DNA of 64,000 nucleotides from the NCBI GenBank assembly GCA_902530745.1, contig CACABO010000001.1, forward strand, positions 62,001 through 126,000, given 5' to 3'. This stretch comes from an uncultured Alphaproteobacteria bacterium (GTDB lineage Bacteria > Pseudomonadota > Alphaproteobacteria > HIMB59). Below are positions 16,260-41,109 of the stretch, one piece after another (position 1 is the first letter of the stretch; each line of letters opens with the position of its first letter). The position numbers were made by a program, and so were the translations under genes. A model generated the notes under the pieces. It made no database searches and was not told where the DNA came from. It saw only the letters and a program-made list of their open reading frames with translations.

Positions 16260-16384
16260 TTTTTTATTGATTTTTTGGTTTTTTTTAAAGACTAGTTGTT
16301 TCATATTATGGATTTTAAGGCTTCAACCTTGTTGTCTTATGCCCTATATTACTTCTACTATTATAATAGATATAGGAGGAGTAA

Positions 16385-17326
16385 ATGAAAAAGTTTATTT
16401 CATTATTTTACGCTCTAGTCCTGTTTGCTGGTTTTACAACTGTAGCAAAAGCAGCAGACCCGATTAGAATTCCAGTTTTAAACTGGTCAAGCCAAATCGT
16501 TATGGCTAACGTTATGGCACAAGCTTTTGAAGAGCTTGGTTATGATGTTGAATTAGTCCCTGCTGAGTCGGCAACAAGATATGAAGCTGTAAGAGTAGGT
16601 GAACTTCACGTTGCTCACGAAACTTGGGAGTCAACAATGGCACTGCCTTTTTATGAAGCTATGGACAAAGGTGGATTAATTGATGCTGGAAGTCACGACC
16701 TTATTACTTTTGAAGAAATGGGTGTTCCTAACTGGGTAATCGAAGATGGATTATGTCCTGGTCTTCCAAGCTGGGAAGCACTTAAATCTCCAGAGTGTGC
16801 AGCAAACTTTGCAACACCAGACTCTGAAGGTAAAGGTAGATGGTTAGAAGGTCCTTATGAGTGGCACACAGAAGTTATGCCTAACAGACTTAAAGGTCTT
16901 GGTATAGATGATTTATGGATGGTAAAATTTGCAGGTACTGCAGATGCATTATGGGCTGAATTAGAAGCAGCTAAAAAAGAAGGAAGAGGCACAATTATCT
17001 TTAACTGGTCTCCAAACTTTACAGATGCAGCTGGTTTTACTTTCATTGAATTTCCTCCATACTTCGAGGGATGTAGACTAGAACAAGGTGGTTCTTTAGA
17101 GACTACTGGTTGTGGTTCTCCAAAAGGTTGGCTTAAAAAAGCTGCTCACATTAAGTTCCCAATCACTCATACATCTGCATATAAGTTCTATACAAAAATG
17201 GAATTTACAGCACCTAACATTGGTGAAATGGCAAACTACGTTGACAACGAAGGCATGACTCATGCTGAAGCTGCAACTGCATATATTGCAAATAATAGAG
17301 ATCAAATCGATCTATTTATGAAGTAA
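16385..17326 (+). CDS. tmoX: Glycine-betaine/TMAO-type ABC transporter substrate-binding protein (OpuAC family, TmoX-like)
   Basis: Signal peptide; ADPIRIPVLNWSSQIVMANV, HETWEST, CPGLPSWEAL, IFNWSPNF with multiple pocket-type Trp; next to tdm-like and tmm genes; AGGAGG RBS. Confidence 0.75.
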   Translation: MKKFISLFYALVLFAGFTTVAKAADPIRIPVLNWSSQIVMANVMAQAFEELGYDVELVPAESATRYEAVRVGELHVAHETWESTMALPFYEAMDKGGLIDAGSHDLITFEEMGVPNWVIEDGLCPGLPSWEALKSPECAANFATPDSEGKGRWLEGPYEWHTEVMPNRLKGLGIDDLWMVKFAGTADALWAELEAAKKEGRGTIIFNWSPNFTDAAGFTFIEFPPYFEGCRLEQGGSLETTGCGSPKGWLKKAAHIKFPITHTSAYKFYTKMEFTAPNIGEMANYVDNEGMTHAEAATAYIANNRDQIDLFMK

Positions 17327-24190: not shown

Positions 24191-25525
24191 TTATTTTGTA
24201 TCTAAATATGTAGCCATAGAGTCATCCATGGCATCCAACCATGTAGTATGATGTGAGGGACCAGTGGTGCCAGTGACTGGCGAGGAAAAGGATTTATCTC
24301 TATAAGTCAGGATATTTTCTTCCTTATGGTGTTCCCAATCATAAAAATGTTTGCGAATTAACTCAAAGTCAATTTTTGGGTAGTCAACAGCAGAACATAA
24401 ATCCACACAATAATCTGTTTGAAAATCAATCATTTGATAGGCATCCTCTAGGGCTTCTTCCTTTTTAACCCAGTTATCAATATCCTTTGCTAACTCATCA
24501 GCTGAAGGCAGAGTTATTTTGTTCATTATTATGTCTCTTACATACCAAGCTTGGGCATCAAACATGTTAAAGGTATGAAACTGATCTTGCATACCAAGAT
24601 AAAACAAATTTTGATTATTTTGCCATACTACTCCTTTGTATAAGTTTGGAGGATACAGTCTGTTATGAGTTTTTAATTTTAGATCTTCTGGTAAAAAAGG
24701 AAAATGATGCAAGTAACCTGTACATAGTATTAAGGCATCCATTTCTTGAACTGTGCCATCTTTAAAAACTGCTTTGTTTCCATCGATCTTATCCATGTAA
24801 TGTACTTCTTTCATGCCTTCAGGCCAATTGAAACCCATTGGATTGTTTCTATAACCAATAGTAACAGTTTTAGCTCCATATTTATAGCACTGTAACGCTA
24901 CATCTTCAGCAGAGTAGCTACTTCCGAGAACGACAACGTTTTTATCTCTAAACTCTTCAGCGTCTCTGAAATCATGAGAGTGCATTATTCTCCCTGGAAA
25001 ACTATTCATCCCCTCATATTCAGGAATGTAGGGAACAGAGAAGTGACCAGTCGCAACAACTAATTTATCAAAACTTTCAGTTTTAGTTTGATCGTCTTTT
25101 TTATTTCGGTATGTAATATCAAATCCATTACCATTATCAGCAACAGAGGTAACAGTGGTGTTAAACTTTACGTATTTTTTTACATCTGAATTTTCTGCAC
25201 GACCTAAAATGTAATCTTGAAGGACGGCTCTTGGAGGGAAGGAGGGAATTGGTTTTTTGAAATGATCATCAAAAGAATAATCTGCAAATTCAAGGCACTC
25301 TTTTGGCCCATTCGACCAAAGGTATCTATACATGCTATTGTGAATTGGATCTCCATATTGATCAGACCCGGTTCTCCAAGTATAATTCCAAAGACCACCC
25401 CAACTTTCTTGTTTTTCAAAGGCAACAACCTCAGGAATATTTTCGCCTTTGCTTTGCGCTTGATGCAGAGATCTTAAAAAAGATAGTCCACAGGGACCTG
25501 TTCCAATTAGTGCAACTTTTGTCAT
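24191..25525 (-). CDS. tmm: Trimethylamine monooxygenase (flavin-containing monooxygenase)
   Basis: GTGPCGLSFLRSL, FEKQESWGGLWNYTWRTGSDQYGDPIHNSMYRYLWSNGPKECLEFADYSFDDHF, NLFYLGMQDQFHTFNMFDAQAWYVRDIIM: near-diagnostic of bacterial Tmm. Confidence 0.95.
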   Translation of the reverse strand: MTKVALIGTGPCGLSFLRSLHQAQSKGENIPEVVAFEKQESWGGLWNYTWRTGSDQYGDPIHNSMYRYLWSNGPKECLEFADYSFDDHFKKPIPSFPPRAVLQDYILGRAENSDVKKYVKFNTTVTSVADNGNGFDITYRNKKDDQTKTESFDKLVVATGHFSVPYIPEYEGMNSFPGRIMHSHDFRDAEEFRDKNVVVLGSSYSAEDVALQCYKYGAKTVTIGYRNNPMGFNWPEGMKEVHYMDKIDGNKAVFKDGTVQEMDALILCTGYLHHFPFLPEDLKLKTHNRLYPPNLYKGVVWQNNQNLFYLGMQDQFHTFNMFDAQAWYVRDIIMNKITLPSADELAKDIDNWVKKEEALEDAYQMIDFQTDYCVDLCSAVDYPKIDFELIRKHFYDWEHHKEENILTYRDKSFSSPVTGTTGPSHHTTWLDAMDDSMATYLDTK

Positions 25526-25623: not shown

Positions 25624-25642
25624 TGTTTCATATTATGGAACA
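25624..25642. promoter_or_regulatory. Putative IclR-type operator in tmm / mgd(sox) divergent promoter region
   Basis: TGTTTCAT-ATT-ATGGAACA, arms 7/8 complementary; same motif at 33743, 34585 and (half-degenerate) 16296. Confidence 0.6.
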
Positions 25643-25698: not shown

Positions 25699-26955
25699 AT
25701 GCAAAAGTACTCAGTTTTTAGTTTAGTAAAAAATGCTTTCACCAACCATGAAAATTGGGAGGTAGCTTGGAAAGACCCTGAACCTAAAAAAGAATACGAT
25801 GTCATAATTGTAGGCGGCGGTGGTCATGGTCTTGCAACAGCTTATTATCTTGCAAAAGAACATGGCATCACAAACGTTGCCATACTTGAAAAGGGTTGGA
25901 TTGGTGGAGGTAATGTTGGAAGAAACACTACCATCTTGAGATCTAACTATATGTTTGATTCAAACGCTCATTTTTATGAGTTTGGTATGAAGCTTTGGGA
26001 AACACTTAGCCAAGAATTAAATTACAACGTTATGTACTCACCGAGAGGAATTATAAACCTAGCTCACTCTGATGCACAAATGAATGCTTACGCTAGAAGA
26101 GGTAACTCTATGAGATTAAATGGTATTGATGCAATTCTTCTTGGAAGGGATGATTTAAAAAAGATGATCCCATTTGCAGATTTTTCAGAAACATGTCGTT
26201 TTCCCATTCATGGTGGTTTAATGCAGCCACGTGGGGGAACTGCAAGACATGATGCAGTTGCTTGGGGATATGCGAGACAGGCAGACTCCATGGGTGTCGA
26301 TATAATTCAAAATTGTGAAGTGACAGGTTTTGATGTTAACAACGGAAAAATAGAAGGCGTTCAAACATCAAGAGGAAATATTAAAACTAAAAAAGTTGGA
26401 TTGTGTGTTGCTGGAAGCACTACACTTTTAGCAGACATGCTAAATATGAGACTTCCAATTGAAGCACATGTTCTGCAAGCTTGTGTCTCAGAACCAGTTA
26501 AACCTTTACTTCATAACGTAGTTACATTCGGAGCAGGTCACTTTTATTGTAGCCAATCTGACAAAGGTGAAATGGTTATGGGTGGTGATTTAGATGGTTA
26601 CAATAGTTATGCTCAAAGAGGAAATATGCCAATGATACAGCATGTTTTAACAGGTGGATTGGCTGTCTTCCCAAACTTTAGTAGACTCAAAATGCTTCGA
26701 ACTTGGGGAGGTATTATGGATATGTCCATGGATGGTTCTCCAATAATCGATAAAACTCATATTGAGGGGGTATATCTTAATTGCGGTTGGTGTTACGGAG
26801 GCTTTAAAGCCACTCCAAGCTCAGGTTTTGTTTTTGCACACACAATAGCACAAGATCAAGTACATGAACTCAACTCAGACTTTAACCTTGAAAGATTCCA
26901 TACTGGAAAAATTATAGATGAAAAGGGTGTAGGCCCTAAACCTTGGATCGGTTAA
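25699..26955 (+). CDS. Sarcosine oxidase beta subunit-like / N-methylglutamate dehydrogenase subunit
   Basis: DVIIVGGGGHGLATAYYLAKEHGITNVAILEKGWIGGGNVGRNTTILRSNY. Confidence 0.9.
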   Translation: MQKYSVFSLVKNAFTNHENWEVAWKDPEPKKEYDVIIVGGGGHGLATAYYLAKEHGITNVAILEKGWIGGGNVGRNTTILRSNYMFDSNAHFYEFGMKLWETLSQELNYNVMYSPRGIINLAHSDAQMNAYARRGNSMRLNGIDAILLGRDDLKKMIPFADFSETCRFPIHGGLMQPRGGTARHDAVAWGYARQADSMGVDIIQNCEVTGFDVNNGKIEGVQTSRGNIKTKKVGLCVAGSTTLLADMLNMRLPIEAHVLQACVSEPVKPLLHNVVTFGAGHFYCSQSDKGEMVMGGDLDGYNSYAQRGNMPMIQHVLTGGLAVFPNFSRLKMLRTWGGIMDMSMDGSPIIDKTHIEGVYLNCGWCYGGFKATPSSGFVFAHTIAQDQVHELNSDFNLERFHTGKIIDEKGVGPKPWIG

Positions 26956-26958
26956 TAG

Positions 26959-27231
26959 ATGTTAGAAATAAAATGCCCATACTGTGGCAAGCGCTCACAA
27001 AATGAATTTTCTTATGGCGGAGACGCTACTATAAAAAGACCTCAACTAGGAGAAGAAATTTCAACCGAGGATTGGGATAATTTTGTTTACTACAGAGATA
27101 ACCCAAGAGGAAAACACTCAGAACTATGGCATCATGTTTCTGGATGTAGACAATGGTTTAAAGTCTCAAGAGACACCGCTACACATGAAATTTTTGACAC
27201 TTGTAAAATGAACGAGGACTTTAATGTCTAA
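26959..27231 (+). CDS. Sarcosine oxidase delta subunit-like / N-methylglutamate dehydrogenase subunit
   Basis: CPYCGKRSQNEFSYGGDA Zn motif; WHHVSGCRQWFKVSRDTATHEI. Confidence 0.92.
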   Translation: MLEIKCPYCGKRSQNEFSYGGDATIKRPQLGEEISTEDWDNFVYYRDNPRGKHSELWHHVSGCRQWFKVSRDTATHEIFDTCKMNEDFNV

Positions 27232-30223
27232 CAGTTTTAGAACAACTAACTCAACTGGACTTATTAATAAGGATAAAAAAATTAATTTTACTTTTAATGG
27301 TACTATTTATCATGGCTATGAAGGAGACACTCTTGCATCTGCTTTAATTGCAAATGGTGTTCATTTAGTTGGAAGAAGTTTTAAGTATCATCGACCTCGT
27401 GGTTTTTTGGGAGTTGGTGTTGAAGAACCAAATGCAATGGTACAATTGCATGATGGTAATAAATCTGAACCTAATATCATTGCAACCGAAGTTGAATTAG
27501 TTGAGGGATTAAAAGCAAAAAGTCAAAATTGTTGGCCTTCAGTTCAATTTGATATTGGAGAAATCAATAATGTATTAAATCGTTTTTTTCCTGCAGGTTT
27601 CTATTACAAAACATTTATGTGGCCAAAAAGTTTTTGGATGAAAATCTATGAACCATTTATAAGAAAAGCTGCTGGTATGGGTAAAGCACCACTGTTACCT
27701 GACCCAGATAGGTACGAACATAATTATGAACACTGCGATGTACTAGTTGTTGGCTCTGGCCCATCAGGCCTCGCAAGTGCTCTGGCTGCCGCTAAAAATG
27801 GGGCAAGGGTTATATTAGCAGAAGACAAGCCTAATTTTGGCGGCTCTCTTCTAACTGACGAAGTTACGATTGGTAACATGTCAGGAAAAGAGTGGGCTAG
27901 TGATACCATTTCCCAACTAAAAAGTATGCCAAATGTAATATTAAAAAAAAGGTCACAAGTCTTCGGATACTATGATCACAATATGACCGTAATGATTGAG
28001 AGAGTTAGCGATCATATTGAAAATCCCTCAAAATACACACCAAGACAAAGACTACATTATATTAGAGCCGGAGAAGTAATAGTTTCAACTGGTTCTATTG
28101 AAAGACCAATATCTTTTGGAAATAATGATAGACCAGGAATTGTATTAGCCTCAGCAGCAAAAGAGTATATGAAGGTTTATGAAACATTAGTTGGTAAGAA
28201 ACCAATTATATTTACCAATAATGATACAGCATATTCAACTGCCCTTGAGTTTATTAAAAATGATATTGAACCAATCATTGTAGACACTCGAGACAGCTCA
28301 AACGGTGAATTAGTCAAGGAAGTTCAGCAAAAGGGTATTTCTATAAAATTTAATTCAGGGATCGCAGACACTAAAGGACATTTGAAGATAAATTCTGCTA
28401 TCATCGGCAAGCTTGACTCTTCAAAAGAATCTTTTATTTCAGAAGAAACAGTAGAGTGTGATTGCATTTGTATGTCCGGAGGCTGGACACCAACGGTTCA
28501 TTTATCTTCCCAAGCTGGAAATAAATTAAAGTTTAATGATGATATTGATGCGTTCGTACCGGATAAAAAAAGACAAAAAGAAACAGCAATTGGAGCAGCT
28601 AATGGTTCTTTCACCTTAAATCAATCTCTAGCTGAAGGTTTTCAAGTGGGCTTTGATTTATCAAACAAATTCACAGATCAAAATAATCCTACAAATAGTC
28701 CTAACTCAAATGAACCTAGCTATGAAAAACATGAAAAGCTCTGGTGTATGCCTTTACCATCTGGAAAAAAACCAAAACGCTTTATCGACTTTCAAAATGA
28801 CGTTGCAGTTTCTGATGTAGAGCTAGCAATTAGAGAAGGCTTCAGATCAATTGAGCACGTCAAAAGATATACAACTCTTGGGATGGCTGGCGATCAAGGC
28901 AAGACAAGTAATTTAAATGGTTTGCAATATGTATCTAAAATTGAAAAAAAGATTGTTCCAGAAGTTGGTCATACTACATTTAGACCACCATACACTCCTG
29001 TAACAATTGGAGCTATCGTGGGTAGAGAAGTTGGTAATCACTATTTACCTACAAGAAAATCTCCCATTCATACATGGCATGAGGAAAATAATGCTGTTTT
29101 TGTAGCGGCAGGTTTATGGCAAAGACCCAGATACTACCCAAGGGGTTCTGAGGACATGAACAGTGCTGTTAATAGGGAAGCTGCAAATGTAAGAAAAAAC
29201 GTTGGAATTTGTGATGTTACGACACTTGGTAAGATTGATATTAAAGGTCCGGATGCACCAGAATTCTTAAATAGAGTTTATACAAATGCATGGCTGAAAC
29301 TGCCCGTTGGAAAAGCTAGATATGGTGTAATGCTAAGGGAAGATGGCATGGTTTTTGATGATGGAACAACATCTCGATTATCTGAAAATCATTTTCATAT
29401 GACTACCACTACTGCCCAAGCTGCAAATGTTTTATCGCACTTAGAGTATTATTTACAAGTTGTATGGCCAGATTTAGATGTAAATGTCTTATCAACTACT
29501 GAACAGTGGTCTGGTATAGCAGTGGCAGGTCCAAAATCTAGAGATCTTTTATCAAAATTATTTCCTGATGTAGATATGTCAAATGAGGGTTTACCATTCA
29601 TGGGTCTTGTTGACTCTTCAATAGACGGTATCAAAGCTAGAATTTATAGAATTTCTTTTTCTGGCGAACTAGCTTATGAGGTTAATGTCGAGTCAAACTA
29701 TGGTCTTTATATTTGGAAGAAGATCATGGAAGAAGGTCAGTCATTTGATATTCAACCATACGGAACAGAGGCTCTATCAACCTTAAGAATAGAAATGGGC
29801 CATGTCGCAGGAGCAGAATTAGACGGACGCACTATTCCTTTTGATGTTGGACTGAATAGTATGGTGAGTCAGAAAAAAGATTTCATAGGTAAAAGATCTT
29901 TATCTAAAGACGCATTCACTGAGTCGGATAGACAAACTATTGTTGGACTTGTTCCACTAGACAAAAAAACAAAGATCCCAGAGGGTTCACATATTATAGA
30001 AGATAACAGTGCTGTTGCCCCAATACCTAAACTTGGACATGTTTCATCTTCTTGTTGGAGTGTTGAATATAATAATCCCTTTTCCATAGCCATAATAAAA
30101 GATGGTAAAAATAAAATTGGTAAAAATCTATATGCTGTCTCTCCTTTAAAAGATATTTCAATTCCAGTTGAGGTAGTATCCTCACACTATGTTGACCCCG
30201 AAGGCACAAGGGTGAGATCATAA
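27224..30223 (+). CDS. Sarcosine oxidase alpha subunit-like / N-methylglutamate dehydrogenase subunit
   Basis: 999 aa; RSFKYHRPRGFLGVGVEEPNA, VLVVGSGPSGLASALAAAKNGARVILAED, C-terminal GcvT domain. Confidence 0.93.
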   Translation: MSNSFRTTNSTGLINKDKKINFTFNGTIYHGYEGDTLASALIANGVHLVGRSFKYHRPRGFLGVGVEEPNAMVQLHDGNKSEPNIIATEVELVEGLKAKSQNCWPSVQFDIGEINNVLNRFFPAGFYYKTFMWPKSFWMKIYEPFIRKAAGMGKAPLLPDPDRYEHNYEHCDVLVVGSGPSGLASALAAAKNGARVILAEDKPNFGGSLLTDEVTIGNMSGKEWASDTISQLKSMPNVILKKRSQVFGYYDHNMTVMIERVSDHIENPSKYTPRQRLHYIRAGEVIVSTGSIERPISFGNNDRPGIVLASAAKEYMKVYETLVGKKPIIFTNNDTAYSTALEFIKNDIEPIIVDTRDSSNGELVKEVQQKGISIKFNSGIADTKGHLKINSAIIGKLDSSKESFISEETVECDCICMSGGWTPTVHLSSQAGNKLKFNDDIDAFVPDKKRQKETAIGAANGSFTLNQSLAEGFQVGFDLSNKFTDQNNPTNSPNSNEPSYEKHEKLWCMPLPSGKKPKRFIDFQNDVAVSDVELAIREGFRSIEHVKRYTTLGMAGDQGKTSNLNGLQYVSKIEKKIVPEVGHTTFRPPYTPVTIGAIVGREVGNHYLPTRKSPIHTWHEENNAVFVAAGLWQRPRYYPRGSEDMNSAVNREAANVRKNVGICDVTTLGKIDIKGPDAPEFLNRVYTNAWLKLPVGKARYGVMLREDGMVFDDGTTSRLSENHFHMTTTTAQAANVLSHLEYYLQVVWPDLDVNVLSTTEQWSGIAVAGPKSRDLLSKLFPDVDMSNEGLPFMGLVDSSIDGIKARIYRISFSGELAYEVNVESNYGLYIWKKIMEEGQSFDIQPYGTEALSTLRIEMGHVAGAELDGRTIPFDVGLNSMVSQKKDFIGKRSLSKDAFTESDRQTIVGLVPLDKKTKIPEGSHIIEDNSAVAPIPKLGHVSSSCWSVEYNNPFSIAIIKDGKNKIGKNLYAVSPLKDISIPVEVVSSHYVDPEGTRVRS

Positions 30224-30819
30224 TGGAACAAGCTCAAAATCTATCACCACTTCATTTTGATCATAAGCTCGGCTTGTTTGGCGACCATGAGAATAAAGAA
30301 AACCTACTAAAAATTTCGGAAATAAAAGACCTAAGTATTTTCCAAATTGCTAAATTTAAAAAAAGCTCAATTGAGATTGAAAAAGTTACCATAAATGAAC
30401 TTAATTTACCGACAGAAAGCCTAAAAGTTTCTCACAACCAAGAAACAAGAGTACTGTGGACCGGTCCTGATACCTGGTTAATTATCTCAAAAAAAATTGA
30501 CTTGAAAGACGAAATTTACAAATCGATTAGAGGTCAGGATTTTGCTATTACAGATATTTCACAATCAAGGGCTGTATTACAAATATCAGGCGTAAATGCA
30601 AAAAATGTTTTAAAAAAAGGTTCTCCAATAAATTTTAATGAAAATATGTTTAAACCAAATAATTGTGTGAACACTACATATAACGGTATTAACATATTGA
30701 TCGACTATTTAGACGACCAACCGTTTTGTTTTAACCTTTATGCATTAAGAAGTTTTGGTGGTTCTTTTTACCATAGCATTACTGACTCGTCATTAGAGTA
30801 TGGGTATGAGGGTATTTAA
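30223..30819 (+). CDS. Sarcosine oxidase gamma subunit-like / N-methylglutamate dehydrogenase subunit
   Basis: Position after alpha subunit, WTGPDTWLII, TDISQSRAVLQISG. Confidence 0.85.
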   Translation: MEQAQNLSPLHFDHKLGLFGDHENKENLLKISEIKDLSIFQIAKFKKSSIEIEKVTINELNLPTESLKVSHNQETRVLWTGPDTWLIISKKIDLKDEIYKSIRGQDFAITDISQSRAVLQISGVNAKNVLKKGSPINFNENMFKPNNCVNTTYNGINILIDYLDDQPFCFNLYALRSFGGSFYHSITDSSLEYGYEGI

Positions 30820-30824
30820 TTTTA

Positions 30825-31706
30825 ATGTGTGGTATAGTTGGAATATATTTAAAAAATAAAAAATACAATTCACAATTAGGTAAATTTCTCACTGGGATGA
30901 TGAATAGCATGGCTACGCGTGGTCCTGATAGTGCAGGTTTTGCGATATACTCATCTGAGAAAAAAAAGAAATATAAATATTCAGTCTGCTCTAATACTGA
31001 TCAGGTAAAAGAAATTTCAAAAAAACTATCTAGGCATGTAAAAGATATCAAAATAAAATCTATTTCAGATCATTTAATAATTGAAACAGCAATGAAGCCT
31101 AAGAAATTTATAGAAATTTTAAAAAACCATGAAGAATTAAGTTTAGTTGGTTATGGTAGTTGCATAGAAATATTTAAACAAGTGGGAAATCCAAAGGATG
31201 TTGTTAAAAATTTTTCACTAGAGAAGTTTTCTGGCTCACATGCTATTGGGCATACAAGGATGGCAACAGAAAGTGCAATCACGACAGATGGCTCTCATCC
31301 ATATTCCACAGGTGAGGATGAATGTCTTGTACATAACGGATCCTTGTCAAATCATAACAATTTAAGAAGATCGCTTCAGAAAAAAGGGATTGAAATAAAG
31401 TCCATGAATGATACGGAAGTCGCTGCAGGTTATATTTCAAACGGATTATCTGACAAAAAATCACTAAAAGAAACACTTTTGGATGGACTGAAGGACCTCG
31501 ATGGTTTTTACACATTTATTTCTGGAACCAAAAATGGCATGGCAATTGTTAGAGATGAGATTGCTTGTAAGCCCGCAGTTGTTGCAGAAACAAAGGATTA
31601 TGTTGCTATTGCCTCAGAGTTTCAAGCAATGGCACATTTACCAAATGTAAATTCAGCAAAAATTTTTGAACCAGAGCCCGGAAAAGTATATAGCTGGGGC
31701 AAATAA
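30825..31706 (+). CDS. Class II glutamine amidotransferase-like protein (N-methylglutamate synthase subunit A / GlxB type), copy 1
   Basis: MCGIVGIY (Cys2), MATRGPDSAGFA, GHTRMATES. Confidence 0.88.
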   Translation: MCGIVGIYLKNKKYNSQLGKFLTGMMNSMATRGPDSAGFAIYSSEKKKKYKYSVCSNTDQVKEISKKLSRHVKDIKIKSISDHLIIETAMKPKKFIEILKNHEELSLVGYGSCIEIFKQVGNPKDVVKNFSLEKFSGSHAIGHTRMATESAITTDGSHPYSTGEDECLVHNGSLSNHNNLRRSLQKKGIEIKSMNDTEVAAGYISNGLSDKKSLKETLLDGLKDLDGFYTFISGTKNGMAIVRDEIACKPAVVAETKDYVAIASEFQAMAHLPNVNSAKIFEPEPGKVYSWGK

Positions 31707-32389
31707 TGAATTTAAATTTAAAAAAAGAGTCATTGAGGAAAGTTAATGAAACTCTTCAAAGTATAGATAGAAAATCAAATAAAAAGATTTTTAAAATTTC
31801 AAATCCAGATGGAAATCACGCTATTTGTGCTGGATTAAAAGACGAGATTGAAGTCACTATTGATGGTCACACAGGATACTATTGTGCTGGTATGAACATG
31901 AATGCAAATATCATTGTAAATGGAAATGTGGGCACAGGTGTTGCCGAAAATATGATGTCTGGAACTGTTCATGTTAAGGGCAATGCATCCCAATCAGCCG
32001 GTGCTACAGCACATGGTGGAACTTTGATCATTGATGGTGATACTAGTTCACGTTGTGGGATTTCAATGAAAGGAATAGATATTATAGTTAAAGGATCGGT
32101 AGGCCATATGTCTGCATTTATGGCTCAATCTGGAAACTTAGTTATATGTGGAGATGCTGGAGACGCTCTGGGAGACAGTATCTATGAAGCAAATATTTTT
32201 ATTAAGGGTAAGGTGAAATCACTCGGTGCTGACTGCGAAGAGAAAAAAATGAATAAAAAAGATCAAAATATTTTGAGATCTCTTTTAAAAAAAGCAAGTA
32301 TAAATGAAAGTGAGATTAAAAACTTCAAAATGTATGGTTCAGCAAGAAAACTTTATAATTTTAATATAGATAATGTATCGGAGTACTGA
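31706..32389 (+). CDS. GXGXG-motif glutamate synthase-like protein (N-methylglutamate synthase subunit B / GlxC type), copy 1
   Basis: Beta-helix repeats: GTGVAENMMSGTVHVKGNASQSAGATAHGG... Confidence 0.88.
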   Translation: MNLNLKKESLRKVNETLQSIDRKSNKKIFKISNPDGNHAICAGLKDEIEVTIDGHTGYYCAGMNMNANIIVNGNVGTGVAENMMSGTVHVKGNASQSAGATAHGGTLIIDGDTSSRCGISMKGIDIIVKGSVGHMSAFMAQSGNLVICGDAGDALGDSIYEANIFIKGKVKSLGADCEEKKMNKKDQNILRSLLKKASINESEIKNFKMYGSARKLYNFNIDNVSEY

Positions 32390-33708
32390 TGGCAGAAAAA
32401 TTTAAAACTACACCAAGAAAATCTTGGACATTTGATGACTATACAAACTCTGAAATTCGAAGAGCTGCAGAAACAGGTATTTATGATATTAGAGGTGGTG
32501 GTTCAAAAAAAAGATTACCTCATTTTGACGATCTTCTTTTTTTAGGCGCATCAATGTCAAGATACCCTTTAGAGGGCTACAGAGAAAAGTGTAGCACTAA
32601 CGTCACTCTTGGAACAAGATTTGCAAAAAAACCGCTTGAATTAGATATTCCAATAACAATTGCTGGAATGAGCTTTGGAGCTCTCTCAGGACCTGCAAAA
32701 GAAGCGCTTGGAAGAGGAGCTAGTATTGCCGGGACTTCAACGACAACAGGCGATGGAGGCATGACCCCTGAGGAGAGAGGACAATCAAAGCATTTGGTTT
32801 ACCAATTACTTCCCTCAAGGTATGGAATGAACCCAGAGGATTTAAGAAAAGCAGATGCTATTGAAGTTGTGATAGGTCAAGGTGCCAAACCTGGCGGCGG
32901 AGGTATGTTACTCGGTCAAAAGATAAGTGATCGTGTTGCCGAGATGAGAACATTACCAAAAGGAATTGATCAGAGATCAGCATGTAGACATCCAGATTGG
33001 ACTGGACCAGATGATTTGGAAATTAAAATTTTAGAACTCAGGGAAATAACAGGTTGGAAAGTTCCCATATTTGTAAAAATTGCAGGATCTAGGCCTTACT
33101 ACGATACTGCTCTTGCAGTAAAAGCCGGTGCTGATGTGGTGGTGCTTGATGGCATGCAAGGAGGTACTGCAGCTACACAAGAGGTATTTATCGAAAACGT
33201 AGGTCAGCCAACATTGGCATGTATCAGGCCAGCAGTAGATGCTTTATTAGACTTAGATATGCACAGGAAGGTTCAGTTAATTATTTCAGGTGGAATTAGA
33301 AATGGTGCGGATGTTGCAAAAGCTATGGCATTGGGTGCTGATGCTGTTTCCATAGGTTCATCAGCATTAATCGCACTTGGTGATAATGATCCAAAGTGGG
33401 AGAGCGATTACAAAAAACTTGGAACAACAGCTGGTGCTTTCGATGATTGGCATGAAGGTAAAGACCCATCTGGTATAAATACACAAGACCCAAAATTAAT
33501 GAAAAGATTAGATCCAGTAAAAGGTGGAAAAAGATTATCTAATTATCTCAAGGTTATGACTCTTGAAGCCCAAACTATAGCGAGGGCATGTGGTAAAAAC
33601 GATTTAAATAATCTTGAACCTGAGGACCTATGTGCATTAACAGTTGAAGCTGCTGCAATGGCTAGAGTTCCTTTAGCGGGAACCGGTTGGGTGCCTGGTA
33701 AGATTTAA
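32389..33708 (+). CDS. FMN-binding glutamate synthase-like protein (N-methylglutamate synthase subunit C / GlxD type), copy 1, Fe-S cysteines absent
   Basis: MSFGALSGPAKEALGRGA, GQGAKPGGGGMLLGQKISDRVAEMR, SGGIRNGADVAKAMALGADAVSIGS; WHEGKDPSGINTQDP replaces the usual Cys-rich motif. Confidence 0.9.
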   Translation: MAEKFKTTPRKSWTFDDYTNSEIRRAAETGIYDIRGGGSKKRLPHFDDLLFLGASMSRYPLEGYREKCSTNVTLGTRFAKKPLELDIPITIAGMSFGALSGPAKEALGRGASIAGTSTTTGDGGMTPEERGQSKHLVYQLLPSRYGMNPEDLRKADAIEVVIGQGAKPGGGGMLLGQKISDRVAEMRTLPKGIDQRSACRHPDWTGPDDLEIKILELREITGWKVPIFVKIAGSRPYYDTALAVKAGADVVVLDGMQGGTAATQEVFIENVGQPTLACIRPAVDALLDLDMHRKVQLIISGGIRNGADVAKAMALGADAVSIGSSALIALGDNDPKWESDYKKLGTTAGAFDDWHEGKDPSGINTQDPKLMKRLDPVKGGKRLSNYLKVMTLEAQTIARACGKNDLNNLEPEDLCALTVEAAAMARVPLAGTGWVPGKI

Positions 33709-33715
33709 CCATTAG

Positions 33716-33743
33716 TTGCTAATAACTTAAACTATACTATAAT
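33716..33743 (+). promoter_or_regulatory. Candidate sigma70 promoter of the iclR gene
   Basis: TTGCTA (33716-33721), 16-nt spacer, TATAAT (33738-33743). Confidence 0.55.
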
Positions 33744-33761
33744 GTTTCACTTTGTGGAACA
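33743..33761. promoter_or_regulatory. Putative IclR-type operator overlapping the iclR promoter
   Basis: TGTTTCAC-TTT-GTGGAACA, arms 7/8 complementary. Confidence 0.65.
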
Positions 33762-33778: not shown

Positions 33779-34549
33779 TTGCAACAAGATTTAAAATATA
33801 TAAACAAATCTCTGGAAAAATCTTTTAAAATTCTTGAAATTTTATCAAAATCGATTTTCCCTTTGAAGGCATCAAATATTTCCAGAAAAGCAGTTTTATC
33901 TAGAACAACTACATTTAGACTATTGTCTGTTTTATCTCAACTTGGTTATATCCATAAAAATACTGGATCGAATACATACACTATGGGGCATAAAGCTTTT
34001 CAATTTGGAGAAACCTCAGATTATCTTCAGTCAATTTCTGAGACTTCTAAAGAAATTCTAAAAGAGGTCTCTAGTAAAACGAATTTAATTACATATTTGG
34101 CAATGCTTGAAGGCTCTCAAATAGTTCATTCCGATAAAATTTCTGACAACAATGATGATGCAACTATTAGAACTTTTAGAATGAGACTTGACGCTCATTG
34201 CTGTGCTTTGGGAAAAGTCATGCTTGCTTACAGACCTGAAAATGAAATTGCAACAATTTATCGAAGTTATAATTTTTATCCTCACACAAACAATACAATT
34301 ACAAATTTAAATGATTTAAAAAGACAACTTGGAAAAATTAGAACTAATGGTTATGCACTTAATCATGGAGAAGCTTTTGAAAACTCTTATGGAATAGGAG
34401 TTGCTATTTTAGACAAAGATAAAAGATCATTTGCCGGAATCGCTTTATCAGGAAGTAAAAATATTTTAAACCCAAAAACTATGATGGATTATGTCGATCT
34501 CCTTCAATCTGCCTCGATTAAAATTTCTCGACTAATTGTTGCCAATTGA
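33779..34549 (+). CDS. IclR family transcriptional regulator
   Basis: N-terminal HTH (KSFKILEILSKSIFPLKASNISRKAVLSRTTTFRLLSVLSQLGYI), C-terminal IclR effector domain; TTG at 33779 with GGAGG 6 nt upstream preferred over the listed 33752. Confidence 0.88.
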   Translation: MQQDLKYINKSLEKSFKILEILSKSIFPLKASNISRKAVLSRTTTFRLLSVLSQLGYIHKNTGSNTYTMGHKAFQFGETSDYLQSISETSKEILKEVSSKTNLITYLAMLEGSQIVHSDKISDNNDDATIRTFRMRLDAHCCALGKVMLAYRPENEIATIYRSYNFYPHTNNTITNLNDLKRQLGKIRTNGYALNHGEAFENSYGIGVAILDKDKRSFAGIALSGSKNILNPKTMMDYVDLLQSASIKISRLIVAN

Positions 34550-34584: not shown

Positions 34585-34611
34585 ATTTTGTTTCATAATA
34601 TGAAACAAAAT
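34585..34611. promoter_or_regulatory. Perfect palindrome, putative IclR-type operator upstream of second module
   Basis: ATTTTGTTTCAT-AAT-ATGAAACAAAAT, 12-bp perfect arms. Confidence 0.7.
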
Positions 34612-34666: not shown

Positions 34667-36013
34667 ATGAGCTTACCTACTAAATGTGACTATTTAATAA
34701 TCGGGGCTGGAATTCACGGTCTGAGCACCGCATGGCATCTTTGTAAAAAATTATCCAGCAAAGGCCAACTCAAAGAAAATTCTGTAGTCGTTTTGGAAAA
34801 ATCCAAAGTTGCAAATGGAGCAAGTGGTGTTGCATGTGGAATTGTAAGGAACAACTACTACCAGCCTGCAATGAGAAGACTAATGGCTCATTCTGTAAAT
34901 GTTTGGAATGAGAATGCAGAGGCTTTAACTTACAAGCCAGTTGGCTACATGCAGATCAACTCCGAGCTTATGCAAGAGGGCATGTCTGAAGTTTATGAGC
35001 AGCAAAAAGAAATAGGATTTGACTCTGAGTTTATCGAGGGAGCATCTGATTGTGACAAGTATATGAAAGACATGTTGCCAGATTGGCAAGCTCAAGGCAT
35101 CACTTCAGTTTTACACGAAAAGAAAACAGGATATGGAGCTAATAGAGGAGCCATAGAGGGCTTCCATAAGTTAGCTGTATCGGCTGGAGCAAAAGTTTTA
35201 GAGGGTGTGACTGTTAATAATTTAATTTCTTCTAACGGTAGTGGCGCAGTTTCGGCTGTAGAAACATCAGAGGGTAAAATTGAATGCACTCAATTAGTTG
35301 TTGCGGCTGGTCCATGGGTAAGAAAATTCTGGGAAATTTTAGAATTACCTAACACCGTAAAAATAAAAAAACCTGATGGTTCATTTACTGATGATATACC
35401 TATGTGGTCATACATGGCGCTTGAAGAGGGTGAGTTGGAAGTTGATCCAAGAAGTTATAAAACAGCAAACGGAACAGAGTACCCAGTTATTCATGTTGAT
35501 ACAGAAGCTACACTTGTCTCAAATAAAACAGGAGATGTTATACATGAAAATGTTATGTGGGGTTTTTACTATAAGCCCGATGTCTACAGAGATGGTATAC
35601 AAGGCGGTTCCTCTCCATATGACATAAATAAACCTGTAAACGACATAAGTCTTGACCCTTATGGTCATGACTCAGATGAGTTTCAACCAAGGGCTTCTTT
35701 TGAGGATAAATGGACCTCAGCTTTGGCTTTTTGCCAAAAGCAATTTGATGGATGTCACGCTAAATACAAAAAGCAAAAAGCTGGCGGTATTGGCTGTGTT
35801 ACCCCAGATCGTTTTCCCGTATTCGACCGATACAGAGAAAACGTATATATTATAGCTGATGCAAACCATGGATACAAAATGGCTGGGTTAGGTGATCTTG
35901 TATCTTATGAGTTACTTGGTGAGAAATCTGAAATTCTAGAACCTTTTAGATTTTCTCGTTATGAAGAAGGGAAGTTACATCCGGTTTCAAAGAGCCCGTT
36001 CCCTTGGAGTTGA
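34667..36013 (+). CDS. FAD-dependent oxidoreductase, DAO/sarcosine-oxidase-beta-like
   Basis: CDYLIIGAGIHGLSTAWHLC, NGASGVACGIVRNNYY, ADANHGYKMAGLGDLVS; ATG 34667 with GGAGG upstream. Confidence 0.88.
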   Translation: MSLPTKCDYLIIGAGIHGLSTAWHLCKKLSSKGQLKENSVVVLEKSKVANGASGVACGIVRNNYYQPAMRRLMAHSVNVWNENAEALTYKPVGYMQINSELMQEGMSEVYEQQKEIGFDSEFIEGASDCDKYMKDMLPDWQAQGITSVLHEKKTGYGANRGAIEGFHKLAVSAGAKVLEGVTVNNLISSNGSGAVSAVETSEGKIECTQLVVAAGPWVRKFWEILELPNTVKIKKPDGSFTDDIPMWSYMALEEGELEVDPRSYKTANGTEYPVIHVDTEATLVSNKTGDVIHENVMWGFYYKPDVYRDGIQGGSSPYDINKPVNDISLDPYGHDSDEFQPRASFEDKWTSALAFCQKQFDGCHAKYKKQKAGGIGCVTPDRFPVFDRYRENVYIIADANHGYKMAGLGDLVSYELLGEKSEILEPFRFSRYEEGKLHPVSKSPFPWS

Positions 36014-36034
36014 TGTAAAAGGAGGAGGAATAAA

Positions 36035-37504
36035 ATGACAGCGCTAGAAACGTACGTTAAGGATAAAAAGAGACAAGACTATATAAAACAAGTTAGAAAA
36101 AAAATTGATAAATTAGGAATTGAGTACATTTATTATCAATTTATTTCTGTTACAGGTCGAATTGTAGGTAAAGGTGTTCCTGCAGATCATTGGGAGAGTG
36201 TAGCCAATAAAGGTTTCCAATTAGTTTATGGAGCTACTGCTAATCTATTTACAAATAGACATGGTGATTACATAGGTTATGGACCAGAGGCTCACGAATT
36301 AGTGGGTATACCTGACCCTGAAACATTTGTTCAAATCCCATGGGATAAAAGAATTGCCAGAGTTTTTTGTACTTGTTTTAGAAACAGGGAAGAAGAAAAA
36401 GATCCTGGTGGATATCTTACATCTGATTGCAGAGGTAACTTAAAAAGAGCCCACGAAGAATTTAAAAAGAAACACAAACTAGAATTACGAGCAGGAACAG
36501 AACCTGAAATGATGTGGTTAACAAAAAACGAAGATGGTTCACCGACTGGTTCAGGTTTCTCTAAGCCCTACTGCTATCACATTGATCAATTTGAATCATT
36601 AAGACCTGTTTACATGAAAGTAATTGAGTATTCACGTGCAATGGGTTTGGACATTATCCAAGGTGACCATGAGGACGCGCCTGGACAATTAGAACTAAAT
36701 TTCAACTACGATGATGTTGTTAGAAACGCTGACAGGCTATCAACTTACAGACAAATCTGTGCTCAAGTAGCAAGAGAATTTAATTTGATTGCTTGTTTTC
36801 TGAGTAAACCATTTGTTGGCGTGTCTGCTTCTGGGTGTCACACAAATATTTCACTCTGGAAGGGCGGAAAAGATGAGTTAATACCATGTGGTAATAAGAC
36901 TATCCCAGGTATGGAAAATGTATTTCATCACCGTAGGGGAGGTACAAATGTCTTTATGCCGGACGGAAAAGATAGAAGAATCCCTGGAAAAATAGGCCTT
37001 CAAGCAATTGGTGGTGTCATGGAACACCTTCCTGCTTTAACAGCCTTGGGTTCCTCAACTGTGAATTCATATAGAAGACTTTGGGATACAGGTTTTTGGG
37101 CTCCAGTTTATGCGGACTGGGGATATCAAAACAGAACCTGTGGTTTAAGGGTATCTGCCCCTGGTAGATTTGAATATCGATCAGTTGACTCAGCCCACAA
37201 CCCATACTTAATGGGAAGCGGTCTGTTGAAAGCATTCGACCATGGTATTTCAAAGAAAATGGATCCAGGCAAACCTGAACAACAAAATATGTATGAACAA
37301 ATGAAAGCTGGTAAGCAAGTTGAAAAATTACCAATGACTCTTGGTGAGGCATTAGATCGATTAGAAACCGACAAGGTAATACAAGATGCTCTACCAGGCG
37401 ACATGATGAAAGTGTTTATGGAGTATAAAAGAGATGAGTGGGAAGAATTTTTAGCAACTCCGACTCAATGGGATCTCGATAAATACCTAGATTGCTTACC
37501 ATAA
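36035..37504 (+). CDS. Glutamine synthetase family ligase (paralogue, not GmaS)
   Basis: AGTEPEMMW, GDHEDAPGQLELNFNYDD, SGCHTNISLW, RFEYRSVDSAHNPYLM; AGGAGGAGG RBS. Confidence 0.88.
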   Translation: MTALETYVKDKKRQDYIKQVRKKIDKLGIEYIYYQFISVTGRIVGKGVPADHWESVANKGFQLVYGATANLFTNRHGDYIGYGPEAHELVGIPDPETFVQIPWDKRIARVFCTCFRNREEEKDPGGYLTSDCRGNLKRAHEEFKKKHKLELRAGTEPEMMWLTKNEDGSPTGSGFSKPYCYHIDQFESLRPVYMKVIEYSRAMGLDIIQGDHEDAPGQLELNFNYDDVVRNADRLSTYRQICAQVAREFNLIACFLSKPFVGVSASGCHTNISLWKGGKDELIPCGNKTIPGMENVFHHRRGGTNVFMPDGKDRRIPGKIGLQAIGGVMEHLPALTALGSSTVNSYRRLWDTGFWAPVYADWGYQNRTCGLRVSAPGRFEYRSVDSAHNPYLMGSGLLKAFDHGISKKMDPGKPEQQNMYEQMKAGKQVEKLPMTLGEALDRLETDKVIQDALPGDMMKVFMEYKRDEWEEFLATPTQWDLDKYLDCLP

Positions 37505-37523
37505 GATAAGATAGGAGAAAAGT

Positions 37524-38465
37524 ATGTGTGGAATAGCTGGAGTTATAAATAAAAAGAAGACAGTCAACGTCGGTGAACAAATGGGCCTTATGTTACAAGG
37601 TCTTAAACATAGGGGACCTGACTCAACAGGATATGCTATGTACGGAACACCTTTAAAAAAAGGCTTTGTAATGAGATTTAAAATATCTGAAAACGAGGCT
37701 GAAAAGGTAAATGCAACTGTCGACTCACCTGCTGATTTAAAAAATAGAAAAAATGCTGTCGACTCTATTTTAAAAAAACATGGTGCTAAAGTAACAAAAG
37801 AAAGCTCCAGCACCCCATACGCTTTCAGATATATATTTGATTTTAAAGGTGACCTCACAGATTTGGCTACTGAGATAGAAACAGTCGAAAAAACTGAAAT
37901 TTTATCAATTGGTAAGGGTCTTGAACTCATTAAAGACTTAGGCGATGCAAATACTGTATCCAATCAATATGGCCTTGATAAATTTATGGGTACACACGGT
38001 ATTGGCCATACAAGGATGGCTACCGAGTCTGATGTAGATATTAAATCTGCACACCCTTATTGGGCTTTCCCTTTTGAGGATGTGTCAGTTGTTCATAATG
38101 GTCAATTGACTAATTATTGGGGCAATCGAAGAGTACTTGAAAGAAAAGGTTACAGGTTTAATTCAAATTGTGACTCAGAAATAATTGCTGTCTATATAGC
38201 TGATAAGATGGCTAACGGCATTGAACTAGAAAAAGCTATGCATGATAGCTTGGATGAGCTCGATGGAGTTTTTACATATGTTGTAGCAACAAAGGATCAG
38301 TTAGGAATGGCAAAAGACCATATGGCCGCTAAGCCAATGGTAATCTACGAAAGTAAAGACATCGTAGCATGTGCATCAGAGGAAGTTGCTATTAGGAATA
38401 TATTTCCTCACGAAATTAAAACATATGACCCTTATGAAGCGGAGGTAAAAGTATGGCAGGCATAA
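37524..38465 (+). CDS. Class II glutamine amidotransferase-like protein (GlxB type), copy 2
   Basis: MCGIAGVI (Cys2), GLKHRGPDSTGYAMYG, GHTRMATESDVD. Confidence 0.9.
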   Translation: MCGIAGVINKKKTVNVGEQMGLMLQGLKHRGPDSTGYAMYGTPLKKGFVMRFKISENEAEKVNATVDSPADLKNRKNAVDSILKKHGAKVTKESSSTPYAFRYIFDFKGDLTDLATEIETVEKTEILSIGKGLELIKDLGDANTVSNQYGLDKFMGTHGIGHTRMATESDVDIKSAHPYWAFPFEDVSVVHNGQLTNYWGNRRVLERKGYRFNSNCDSEIIAVYIADKMANGIELEKAMHDSLDELDGVFTYVVATKDQLGMAKDHMAAKPMVIYESKDIVACASEEVAIRNIFPHEIKTYDPYEAEVKVWQA

Positions 38466-39289
38466 CAAAAAGAACTACTGCTTTTGATGATGAAAATTTA
38501 TCAGGTAGATCGCAAAAATTATATTTTGAAGTAACAGAAGAAGAAAATTATACCTACTACGGTAATCACGAAGTTGATTTTAATAAAAGAACCTCCATTG
38601 ATTGTGAAGGCATTGATGCACATGAGTTGAATCAAAAAATTAGAGATGCAATTCGAAAGGGATATGGGTCTATAGTTATTAAAAACCCTGGTGCAAAACA
38701 CTCACTTGGTGTGGGAATTCTAAATAAGTTAAACTTAATCTTTGAGGGTAGCTTAGGTTATTTTGGTATCGGTTGTATCGATGGACCAACAGTGAGAGTT
38801 AACGGAAGAGTTGGTTGGTCATGTGCTGAAAATATGATGTCAGGAAAAGTTGTTGTTGAAAACAATGCAGGATCTTGTTTTGGAGCTGCTCTTAGAGGTG
38901 GTGACCTTATAGTTAAAGGCGATGCAGGTGCAAGAACTGGAATTGATATGAAAGGTGGCACTATTCTTATTGGAGGAAATGCTGGAGCTTACACGGGATT
39001 TATGATGCAAAGAGGAAGAATTATCGTTTGTGGTGATGTAAACGCAAACATGGGTGACTCAATGTATGATGGAATCATTTTTGTAGGAGGAGAGCCTCAT
39101 TCGCTTGGAACAGACTGCGTACCTGGTGAAATGAATGAACACGAGGTTAGATGGCTAGAACAAAAAATTAAAAATGCTGAGATTGATTGCAAGGTCCCAG
39201 CTTCAAAATTTAAGAAATACGTTGCAGGAAGAATGCTCTGGAATTATGACAATCTAGAGCCAGCAGAAAAGAAAGGAATATTAGGCTAA
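38453..39289 (+). CDS. GXGXG-motif glutamate synthase-like protein (GlxC type), copy 2
   Basis: VGWSCAENMMSGKVVVENNAGSCFGAALRGGDLIVKGDAGARTGIDMKGG. Confidence 0.9.
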   Translation: MAGITKRTTAFDDENLSGRSQKLYFEVTEEENYTYYGNHEVDFNKRTSIDCEGIDAHELNQKIRDAIRKGYGSIVIKNPGAKHSLGVGILNKLNLIFEGSLGYFGIGCIDGPTVRVNGRVGWSCAENMMSGKVVVENNAGSCFGAALRGGDLIVKGDAGARTGIDMKGGTILIGGNAGAYTGFMMQRGRIIVCGDVNANMGDSMYDGIIFVGGEPHSLGTDCVPGEMNEHEVRWLEQKIKNAEIDCKVPASKFKKYVAGRMLWNYDNLEPAEKKGILG

Positions 39290-40623
39290 TGGCAAAACGT
39301 AATACACAACTATTAGGACAAAACTCAATTTTTACCCCCGAGGTAATGGACGACATTCATATCAAATCACAACTTGGTCGTTATCGTATGCGTGGTATGG
39401 CGTTAATGAAAAAAATTCCTCACTGGGATGACTTAGTTTTTTTACCAGGCACATTAACAAGATTTGTTATTGAAGGTTACAGAGAGAAGTGTCTAACAGA
39501 AACAATAATAGGTCCTAGAGCAAAAAATCCTATCAAACTTGATATTCCTGTTTACATAACAAGTATGAGTTTTGGTGCTCTTTCTTATGAAGCAAAAACT
39601 GCTTTAGCTAGAGGTTCATCAATGGCTGGAAGTGCAACTTGCTCTGGAGAAGGGGGTATGATACCTGATGAGAGAAGGTACTCTCACAAATGGTATTATC
39701 AATGTATTCAATCCAGGTATGGCTTCAACCCACACCATGCTCAATTAGCTGACGCCATTGAGGTTTTCATTGGCCAAGGTCAAAAAGTTGGGATGGGTGG
39801 TCACTTAATGGGCCAGAAAGTTACTGACCAAGTAGCTGAGATGAGATCGTTACCTGCTGGTATTGATCAAAGATCTCCTGCTAGACACCCAGACTGGATG
39901 GGACCGGACGATTTAGCTCTTAAGGTTCAAGAATTAAGAGAATTAACTGACAATCAAGTGCCAATTCAATTGAAGTTAGGTGCATCAAGAGTTTATGATG
40001 ATGTCAGAATGGCAGCAAAATGTGACCCTGACTCTATATTTTTAGACTCTATGGAAGGTTCAACAGCAGCTGGTCCACACATTGCAGCAGCTAATACTGG
40101 TATTCCTGGTATCGGTGCAATTAGAGAAGCAAGAAGAGCTTTGGACGATGTGGGAAAAACTGGTGAAATATCATTAGTATTTGCTGGAGGTATTAGAGAT
40201 GGAGCTGATATGGCTAAAGCCTTAGCTCTTGGGGCAGATGCTATTGCTATCGGTACAGCTGGATTAGTAGCACTGAACTGTAACAAAGATATTCCAGAAG
40301 CTGATTATGAAAAAGAAATGGGAGTGGAGGCAGGTTACTGCTATCACTGTCATACTGGTAGATGTCCAGTTGGTGTGGCCACACAGGATCCTGTTCTTAG
40401 AAGTAGATTAGACCCAACAGAGGCAGCAGAAAGAGTTTATAATTTGCTCAGCACTATGACTCTTGAGTGCCAAATGTTAGCAAGAGCATGTGGTAAGACA
40501 AACATTCACTCACTTGAGCCAGAAGATCTAGCTGCATTGACAATGGAGTCATCAGCAATGGCAAAAGTTCCATTAGCTGGTACAGATTTAACAGTAGGTG
40601 TAGATAACTACCACTCAATTTAG
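39289..40623 (+). CDS. FMN-binding glutamate synthase-like protein (GlxD type), copy 2, Fe-S cysteines present
   Basis: MSFGALSYEAKTALARGSSMAGSATCSGEGG, CYHCHTGRCPVGVATQDPVLRSRLDP. Confidence 0.93.
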   Translation: MAKRNTQLLGQNSIFTPEVMDDIHIKSQLGRYRMRGMALMKKIPHWDDLVFLPGTLTRFVIEGYREKCLTETIIGPRAKNPIKLDIPVYITSMSFGALSYEAKTALARGSSMAGSATCSGEGGMIPDERRYSHKWYYQCIQSRYGFNPHHAQLADAIEVFIGQGQKVGMGGHLMGQKVTDQVAEMRSLPAGIDQRSPARHPDWMGPDDLALKVQELRELTDNQVPIQLKLGASRVYDDVRMAAKCDPDSIFLDSMEGSTAAGPHIAAANTGIPGIGAIREARRALDDVGKTGEISLVFAGGIRDGADMAKALALGADAIAIGTAGLVALNCNKDIPEADYEKEMGVEAGYCYHCHTGRCPVGVATQDPVLRSRLDPTEAAERVYNLLSTMTLECQMLARACGKTNIHSLEPEDLAALTMESSAMAKVPLAGTDLTVGVDNYHSI

Positions 40624-40632
40624 GAGAGTATT

Positions 40633-41109
40633 ATGGTTAAAAAGAAAGTTACAAAAAAGAAATCAACTTCTGCAAAATCAAAAAAACCTACTAAGTCAAA
40701 AGGTTATCAAGTTGTCGGCGGAGCTAAATTAAAAGATAAGGAAATTAAAACATCAAGAGAAAAAATGATTGGCCAGCATATTGGCTATCGTTATGATGTT
40801 AACTTAATTCCTGATTACAAGCACTTAACACCATTTCTTAAACAATATATCGAAATTATGGGTTGGGATGATTTAAATTGGTTAGAGGACATCCATATGG
40901 GTTTTGAAGGTGATACCCCTGCTGTGTTTGACAGAAATGCAAACGCTTGGATCACTTTGCCAAAGAAGATTAAACTTCCAAAAAACCAACAAGATAGAGA
41001 TATGTTAGCAAGAGAACTTTTAATTAAGTTTCAAATGTCACCTAATCATCCCTTGGTACAGTTAAAAAGAACATACGCTAAGGGTGAGAACTTTAAGTTA
41101 GTTGAGTAA
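40633..41109 (+). CDS. Conserved-looking hypothetical protein with Lys-rich N-terminus
   Basis: MVKKKVTKKKSTSAKSKKPTKSKG followed by an ordered-looking domain (GQHIGYRYDVNLIPDYKHLTPFLKQYIEIMGWDDLNW); 10 nt after the GlxD-like gene. Confidence 0.75.
   Translation: MVKKKVTKKKSTSAKSKKPTKSKGYQVVGGAKLKDKEIKTSREKMIGQHIGYRYDVNLIPDYKHLTPFLKQYIEIMGWDDLNWLEDIHMGFEGDTPAVFDRNANAWITLPKKIKLPKNQQDRDMLARELLIKFQMSPNHPLVQLKRTYAKGENFKLVE

Follow-up and report, generated by a model that had tools for sequence, protein, structure and literature searches.

The catabolism of trimethylamine (TMA) in Ruegeria pomeroyi DSS-3 is regulated by TmaR (the master regulator, AraC-type, SPO1584) and TmoR (GntR-type, SPO1553); TmaR activates most of the tmm, tdm, mgs and mgd transcription units, and its signal is a downstream catabolite of MMA (PMC13390433). 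That study does not cover regulation in SAR11 or in HIMB59, a clade also known as AEGEAN-169 or SAR11 subclade V (PMC10308909). Another relevant group is the IclR family, whose members may repress, activate or do both, and whose group 1 binds operators of a GTT-11-AAC class (consensus GTTYCRYW3RYGRAAC) that mostly lie at -20 to -80 from the start; the word "methylamine" is absent from the main text of the survey that defines this class (PMC8222616). The literature we searched held no description of the control of methylated-amine use in SAR11-like bacteria, and no IclR regulator of methylamine genes or of HIMB59 or SAR11. Much of the turnover of dissolved organic nitrogen in the sea is methylated-amine use, and streamlined SAR11-like bacteria have few dedicated regulators. 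The best reading of the locus described here, judged from comparative sequence evidence, is that one IclR protein would serve as the local master regulator of TMA, TMAO and methylamine catabolism in the HIMB59 (AEGEAN-169) order.

"The window" is the whole 64,000-nucleotide stretch analysed, which comes from the HIMB59 clade of marine alphaproteobacteria. The initial annotation had proposed that an IclR-type palindrome recurs there upstream of four transcription units, and the four sequences were indeed found at the positions it gave: TGTTTCATATTATGGAACA (25624-25642), TGTTTCACTTTGTGGAACA (33743-33761), ATTTTGTTTCATAATATGAAACAAAAT (34585-34611) and GTTGTTTCATATTATGGA (16295-16312). The 18-nt identity it noted between positions 16295 and 25622 was borne out, and no other 18-mer of the window is repeated on the same strand. 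Its description of all four sites as having the same 3-nt-spaced arms holds for those before soxB/tmm, iclR and the second module, but not for the one before tmoX, in which the right arm is broken. A genome-wide motif scan had been set beforehand as a possible refutation. GTTTCAY-N3-RTGRAAC matched with 0 mismatches at three places in the genome (1,280,626 bases, 27 contigs), all within 9 kb, so that exact matches are confined to the cluster and do not appear as background. The form GTTTCAYNNNRTGRAAC was present at 0 mismatches only at 25625, 33744 and 34590 of the window, sites that precede soxB/tmm, iclR and the second module respectively; none of 100 dinucleotide-shuffled versions of the window contained an exact motif. 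When 2 mismatches were allowed, 12 matches were found in the window versus 4.8 expected. This enrichment is only mild, so we dropped the 2-mismatch counts as evidence, and the window by itself makes no case for the tmoX site.

Table 1. Positions of the predicted operators and of the genes of the methylated-amine cluster in the window.
Feature	Coordinates	Strand	Evidence or remarks
Predicted degenerate operator before tmoX (GTTTCATATTATGGATT)	16298..16314	+	full left arm; right arm imperfect, 2 mismatches
tmoX-like TMAO substrate-binding protein	16385..17326	+	best PDB match 4xz6, E 2e-65
tmoV	17394-18407		downstream of tmoX
tmoW-like permease	18400-20472		downstream of tmoX
tdm (TMAO demethylase)	20476-22827		NF053776 above cut-off
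GcvT-like gene	22844-24013		follows tmoX
tmm, trimethylamine monooxygenase	24191..25525	-	NF058570 738 bits, cut-off 675; PDB Tmm structures
Predicted tmm/soxB operator (TGTTTCAT-ATT-ATGGAACA)	25624..25642	+	exact in 35/35 distinct orthologous soxB upstreams
soxB/D/A/G-like genes and mgsABC	25699..33708	+	Mgd/Mgs assigned by gene content
Sigma-70-like promoter TTGCTA-16-TATAAT, 10/12	33716..33743	+	best consensus promoter of iclR region; abuts operator
Predicted iclR operator (TGTTTCAC-TTT-GTGGAACA)	33743..33761	+	between -10 element and Shine-Dalgarno sequence
iclR	33779..34549	+	HTH_IclR PF09339 and IclR_C PF01614
Predicted second-module operator, perfect extended palindrome (ATTTTGTTTCATAATATGAAACAAAAT)	34585..34611	+	arms exact in 43/45 distinct upstreams, two families
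Second module: dao2 (FAD oxidoreductase, DAO), gs2 (glutamine-synthetase-like), second mgsABC-like set, 158-aa ORF	34667..41109	+	
gmaS candidate	41719-43026	-	best PDB match 7cql
Ammonium transporter (amt)	43260-44537		divergent from gmaS candidate

The genes of the cluster are listed in Table 1. tmm and soxB are divergent and have a common predicted operator between them. The soxB/D/A/G-like genes are candidates for the N-methylglutamate dehydrogenase Mgd; we take the Mgd and Mgs assignments from gene content and established pathway knowledge. The structure 7cql is a type III glutamate-ammonia ligase, and we read the gene of the window that it matches best as GmaS. In the open reading frame list, iclR starts at TTG 33752 and the second module at ATG 34610, positions that the operators enclose or border on. 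Conservation points to starts further downstream, at TTG 33779 for iclR, behind GGAGGA and where the orthologues begin to align, and at ATG 34667 for the second module. Measured from the gene starts, the operator centres lie about 66 bp (soxB), 69 bp (dao2) and 27 bp (iclR) upstream. The 489-aa glutamine-synthetase-like protein of the second module resembles glutamine synthetases chiefly over two stretches that are not contiguous, and its scores fall well short of every GlnA and GmaS cut-off.

Exact motif matches occur in 42 of the 52 genomes of the family, and a reversed control pattern in none. An IclR orthologue is likewise present in 42 of 52 genomes. To score orthologous promoters we required an exact GTTTCA-N5-TGRAAC within 150 bp of the gene and counted distinct upstreams. 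Conservation in such promoters, the other check proposed at the outset, was found in 35/35 distinct soxB upstreams and, across two families, in 43/45 distinct dao2 upstreams. Control upstreams in the same cluster almost never carried an exact match (soxA 1/34, mgsA1 0/44, mgsC1 0/51, gs2 0/39, mgsA2 0/43, mgsC2 0/43). All divergent members of the genus that were checked, with IclR proteins 73-90% identical, keep the sites before soxB/tmm, iclR and dao2; this includes cases in which tmm is only 56-64% identical and its flank is unrelated. Upstream of iclR, 26 exact and 8 one-mismatch sites were found in 57 upstreams, the remainder being mostly from the second family; the arms of this operator are constant, while its spacer and inner bases differ among strains (CTTTG, TTCTG, CACTA, TACTG). 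The genomes without iclR (G026, G037, G046, G047, G050) are also without a linked soxB; they are represented by short contigs around tmoX, and several are incomplete. Two further features may be recorded: the dao2 operator occurs in tandem in two strains, 42 bp or about four helical turns apart (L046 10438/10480, L047 8364/8406), and an extra FAD oxidoreductase gene lies between mgsC and iclR in HIMB59 (L038 12560-13846).

The second family of the order provides a more distant comparison. Its IclR homologue is 43-47% identical to that of the window and its gene order differs: tmm adjoins tmoX, the neighbour of iclR is tdm, and soxB has moved to another locus. The second module is held together in both families. 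The palindrome is exact before dao2 in 18/20 second-family loci, a one-mismatch form is present in most tmm/tmoX intergenic regions, and the relocated soxB operon has an exact site in at least 6 genomes. The SoxB encoded there is 56% identical to the window's SoxB versus 47% to the sarcosine-oxidase paralogue. Between the families, the arms of the dao2 site are 98% identical (spacer 22%, flanks 31-39%) and those of the soxB site 94% (spacer 46%, flanks 39-43%), values for which the sites were aligned on the best match, a procedure that inflates arm identity. The control genes, which almost never carry the motif, speak against the procedure as the cause of the arm identity. Across divergent genomes, orthologous promoters thus retain the sites to a degree that exceeds neutral expectation, as a conserved regulon would predict. 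In the second family no site precedes iclR. Autoregulation, as proposed in the initial annotation, is consequently predicted for the HIMB59 genus, where the site precedes iclR, but not for the second family, and is by this measure lineage-specific. A choline-kinase-like gene lies between tdm and iclR in the second family (L174 8631-9506).

Several observations bear on the identity of the regulator. The genome encodes exactly one protein with an IclR helix-turn-helix domain. Both of its domains score above their cut-offs (PF09339, 37.8 bits versus 22; PF01614, 102 bits versus 24), and a phmmer comparison with 1mkm gave E 3e-27 over residues 11-252. The best matches of its AlphaFold model (pLDDT 78) are 1mkm, 2g7u and PcaR 8ejv, with a whole-chain TM of 0.5-0.6 as domain orientations differ; the prediction confirmed the fold and indicated no effector. 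The closest NCBIfam subfamilies, BhcR and PcaR/PcaU/PobR, score 107-114 bits against curated cut-offs of 350 and 285, so the protein is not a member of either. The AraC domain PF12833 is absent from four genomes of the HIMB59 order, including this one, which therefore has no TmaR; its one GntR gene (G000:C1:45022) is outside the window. A search of 395 alphaproteobacterial genomes for IclR orthologues at E 1e-35 returned only the protein's own genus and one 32% match, and with so narrow a family there is no wider footprint beyond the order. By their sequence the palindromes are of the published GTT-11-AAC class: the soxB and dao2 sites fit GTTYCRYW3RYGRAAC, and the iclR site deviates at inner positions only, in some strains (PMC8222616). 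Taken together, we consider it very probable that the palindromes are operators of the IclR protein encoded at 33779-34549, which makes these genes a predicted regulon with a predicted regulator. The proposal that this protein controls the transporter, tmm/mgd/mgs and the second module is in this predictive sense supported by site conservation, by the single IclR gene and by the motif class.

The regulon does not appear to include every gene of the pathway, since gmaS and amt have no IclR palindrome in this window, their common divergent promoter included; the gmaS candidate and amt are probably controlled otherwise. Outside the window, many members of the genus have a conserved intergenic sequence, GTTTCANNNNNTGGAAC, with an SSF-like symporter gene on one side and on the other a 142-aa gene that belongs to no known family (G000:C5:34436, equivalent to L007 1501-1517; also L236-L240, L243-L245 and L248), mostly within a longer conserved element. 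It is a possible further target of the same IclR. Two members of a single subclade (L052 9561, L053 9744) also carry an exact palindrome, flanked by a zinc-alcohol-dehydrogenase-like gene and a TctC gene that diverge from each other. Other candidates were rejected as operators: GTTTCATTATCTGAAAC, found in many second-family genomes without iclR, is within a 355-358-aa reading frame in the five genomes examined, and both GTTTCATGCCATGGAAC in G014/G043 and GTTTCAGCTTATGGAAC in G086 are coding. The sarcosine-oxidase paralogue was also rejected as an extra target, as its operon in HIMB59 genomes has no such palindrome before it and no convincing site was found.

Similarity arising by chance or from repeats in AT-rich DNA would be consistent with the mild 2-mismatch enrichment and with the exact matches elsewhere in relatives, which are often within coding sequence; the clean shuffles, the confinement of the motif to the cluster and a phylogenetic footprint that contradicts it make this explanation scarcely credible. 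A less easily dismissed objection is that the palindromes belong to another transcription factor and that the IclR gene has no part in the matter, the assignment of the motif to IclR being based on neighbourhood and class. We regard this as quite improbable: the genome offers a single IclR gene and no AraC protein, the motif fits the published IclR class, iclR itself bears a site in the genus, and iclR and a site remain beside dao2 through the rearrangement of the second family. Doubt is greatest for the tmoX site, the weakest of the four. The other three sites might alone be functional, the tmoX sequence being a remnant or a by-product of the start codon of alr, since its right arm is broken in this genome and it shares bases with the ATG at which the divergent alanine racemase gene alr is taken to start (minus strand, 16302-16304; CAT as read here), and since no site is near the tmoX start in G009 and only a distant one is found in G008. 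That is the less likely account, though one to be taken seriously. In most of the genus the site keeps a distance of 69-71 bp from the tmoX ATG, and it is a 1-mismatch palindrome in several subclades, including AG-337, as well as in most of the second family, where the neighbour is tmm and not alr; furthermore, the next gene, tmoV, lacks a site in 56 upstreams.

On the sign of control the sequence evidence is nearly balanced. The first base of the iclR operator is also the last base of the -10 hexamer (TTGCTA-16-TATAAT, ending 33743), and in the close subclade a conserved TATAAT immediately precedes the operator; occupancy should therefore block transcription. At dao2, soxB and tmoX, the operator is followed 24-30 bp further 3' by a conserved AT-rich block that resembles a -10 element, an arrangement in which the operator is upstream of the promoter-like block and which suggests activation, and the tmm/soxB region has no consensus promoter, as expected where a promoter needs an activator. 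The same regulon could instead be governed by a pure repressor, released from all sites by an inducer. The position of the operator directly after the -10 element at iclR favours this, and weak promoter-like matches upstream of or overlapping the dao2 operator (TTGACG-18-TAGATT, TTGATA-16-AAAAAT) would fit repression. Precedent within the family does not discriminate between the two, given that repressor, activator and dual modes are all known for IclR proteins (PMC8222616). Against pure repression stand the downstream -10-like blocks and the want of a consensus promoter at tmm/soxB, and we judge it somewhat less than an even prospect; activation at the targets, taken alone, is itself about an even call.

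Among IclR proteins, the classical IclR/KdgR/BlcR mode is that of a repressor released by an inducer, while PcaU/PobR-type proteins are activators. Under the dual mode that we prefer, IclR would bind GTTTCA-N5-TGRAAC before its own gene, between the divergent tmm and soxBDAG(mgd)-mgsABC units, before the module of second oxidoreductase, glutamine-synthetase-like and mgsABC-like genes and, more weakly, before tmoXVW-tdm. At its own promoter it would block transcription and so act as an autorepressor. A small pathway metabolite bound to its C-terminal domain would bring about activation at dao2, soxB and tmoX, as in the PcaU/PobR type. Our guess for the inducer, by analogy with TmaR, is a carboxylate derived from MMA, such as N-methylglutamate or gamma-glutamylmethylamide.

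With one candidate regulator and sites supported by phylogenetic footprinting, the predicted regulon lends itself to direct tests. It ties the second oxidoreductase, glutamine-synthetase-like and mgs-like module to the methylamine response, which would narrow down the likely function of that module, and it suggests that a non-homologous protein has taken the place of the regulator lately described from Roseobacters. The stronger form of this proposition is that, throughout an order of abundant marine bacteria poor in regulators, IclR replaced the AraC/GntR (TmaR/TmoR) circuit as the sole dedicated master regulator of TMA, TMAO and methylamine catabolism, repressing its own gene and activating three or more pathway units, including the undescribed second mgs-like module; this we hold to be evenly poised.

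The predicted HIMB59 regulon can be compared with known systems. Like TmaR and TmoR, the HIMB59 IclR would be a locally encoded regulator of units of the same pathway, but those two proteins are of other families, and no AraC protein is encoded in the four HIMB59-order genomes. Experimentally known relatives of the IclR protein are PcaU/PobR/PcaR, MhpR and GenR. The BhcR and PcaR/PcaU/PobR models are the best-matching IclR subfamilies, yet the window's protein falls below their cut-offs. With the catabolic regulators of the IclR family it has in common the domain architecture, the operator class and, as predicted here, control of its own and adjacent operons, whereas the pathway differs, being that of methylated-amine catabolism (PMC8222616). 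The class of mechanism is thus an ordinary and known kind of gene control, applied to a regulon undescribed in the literature searched.
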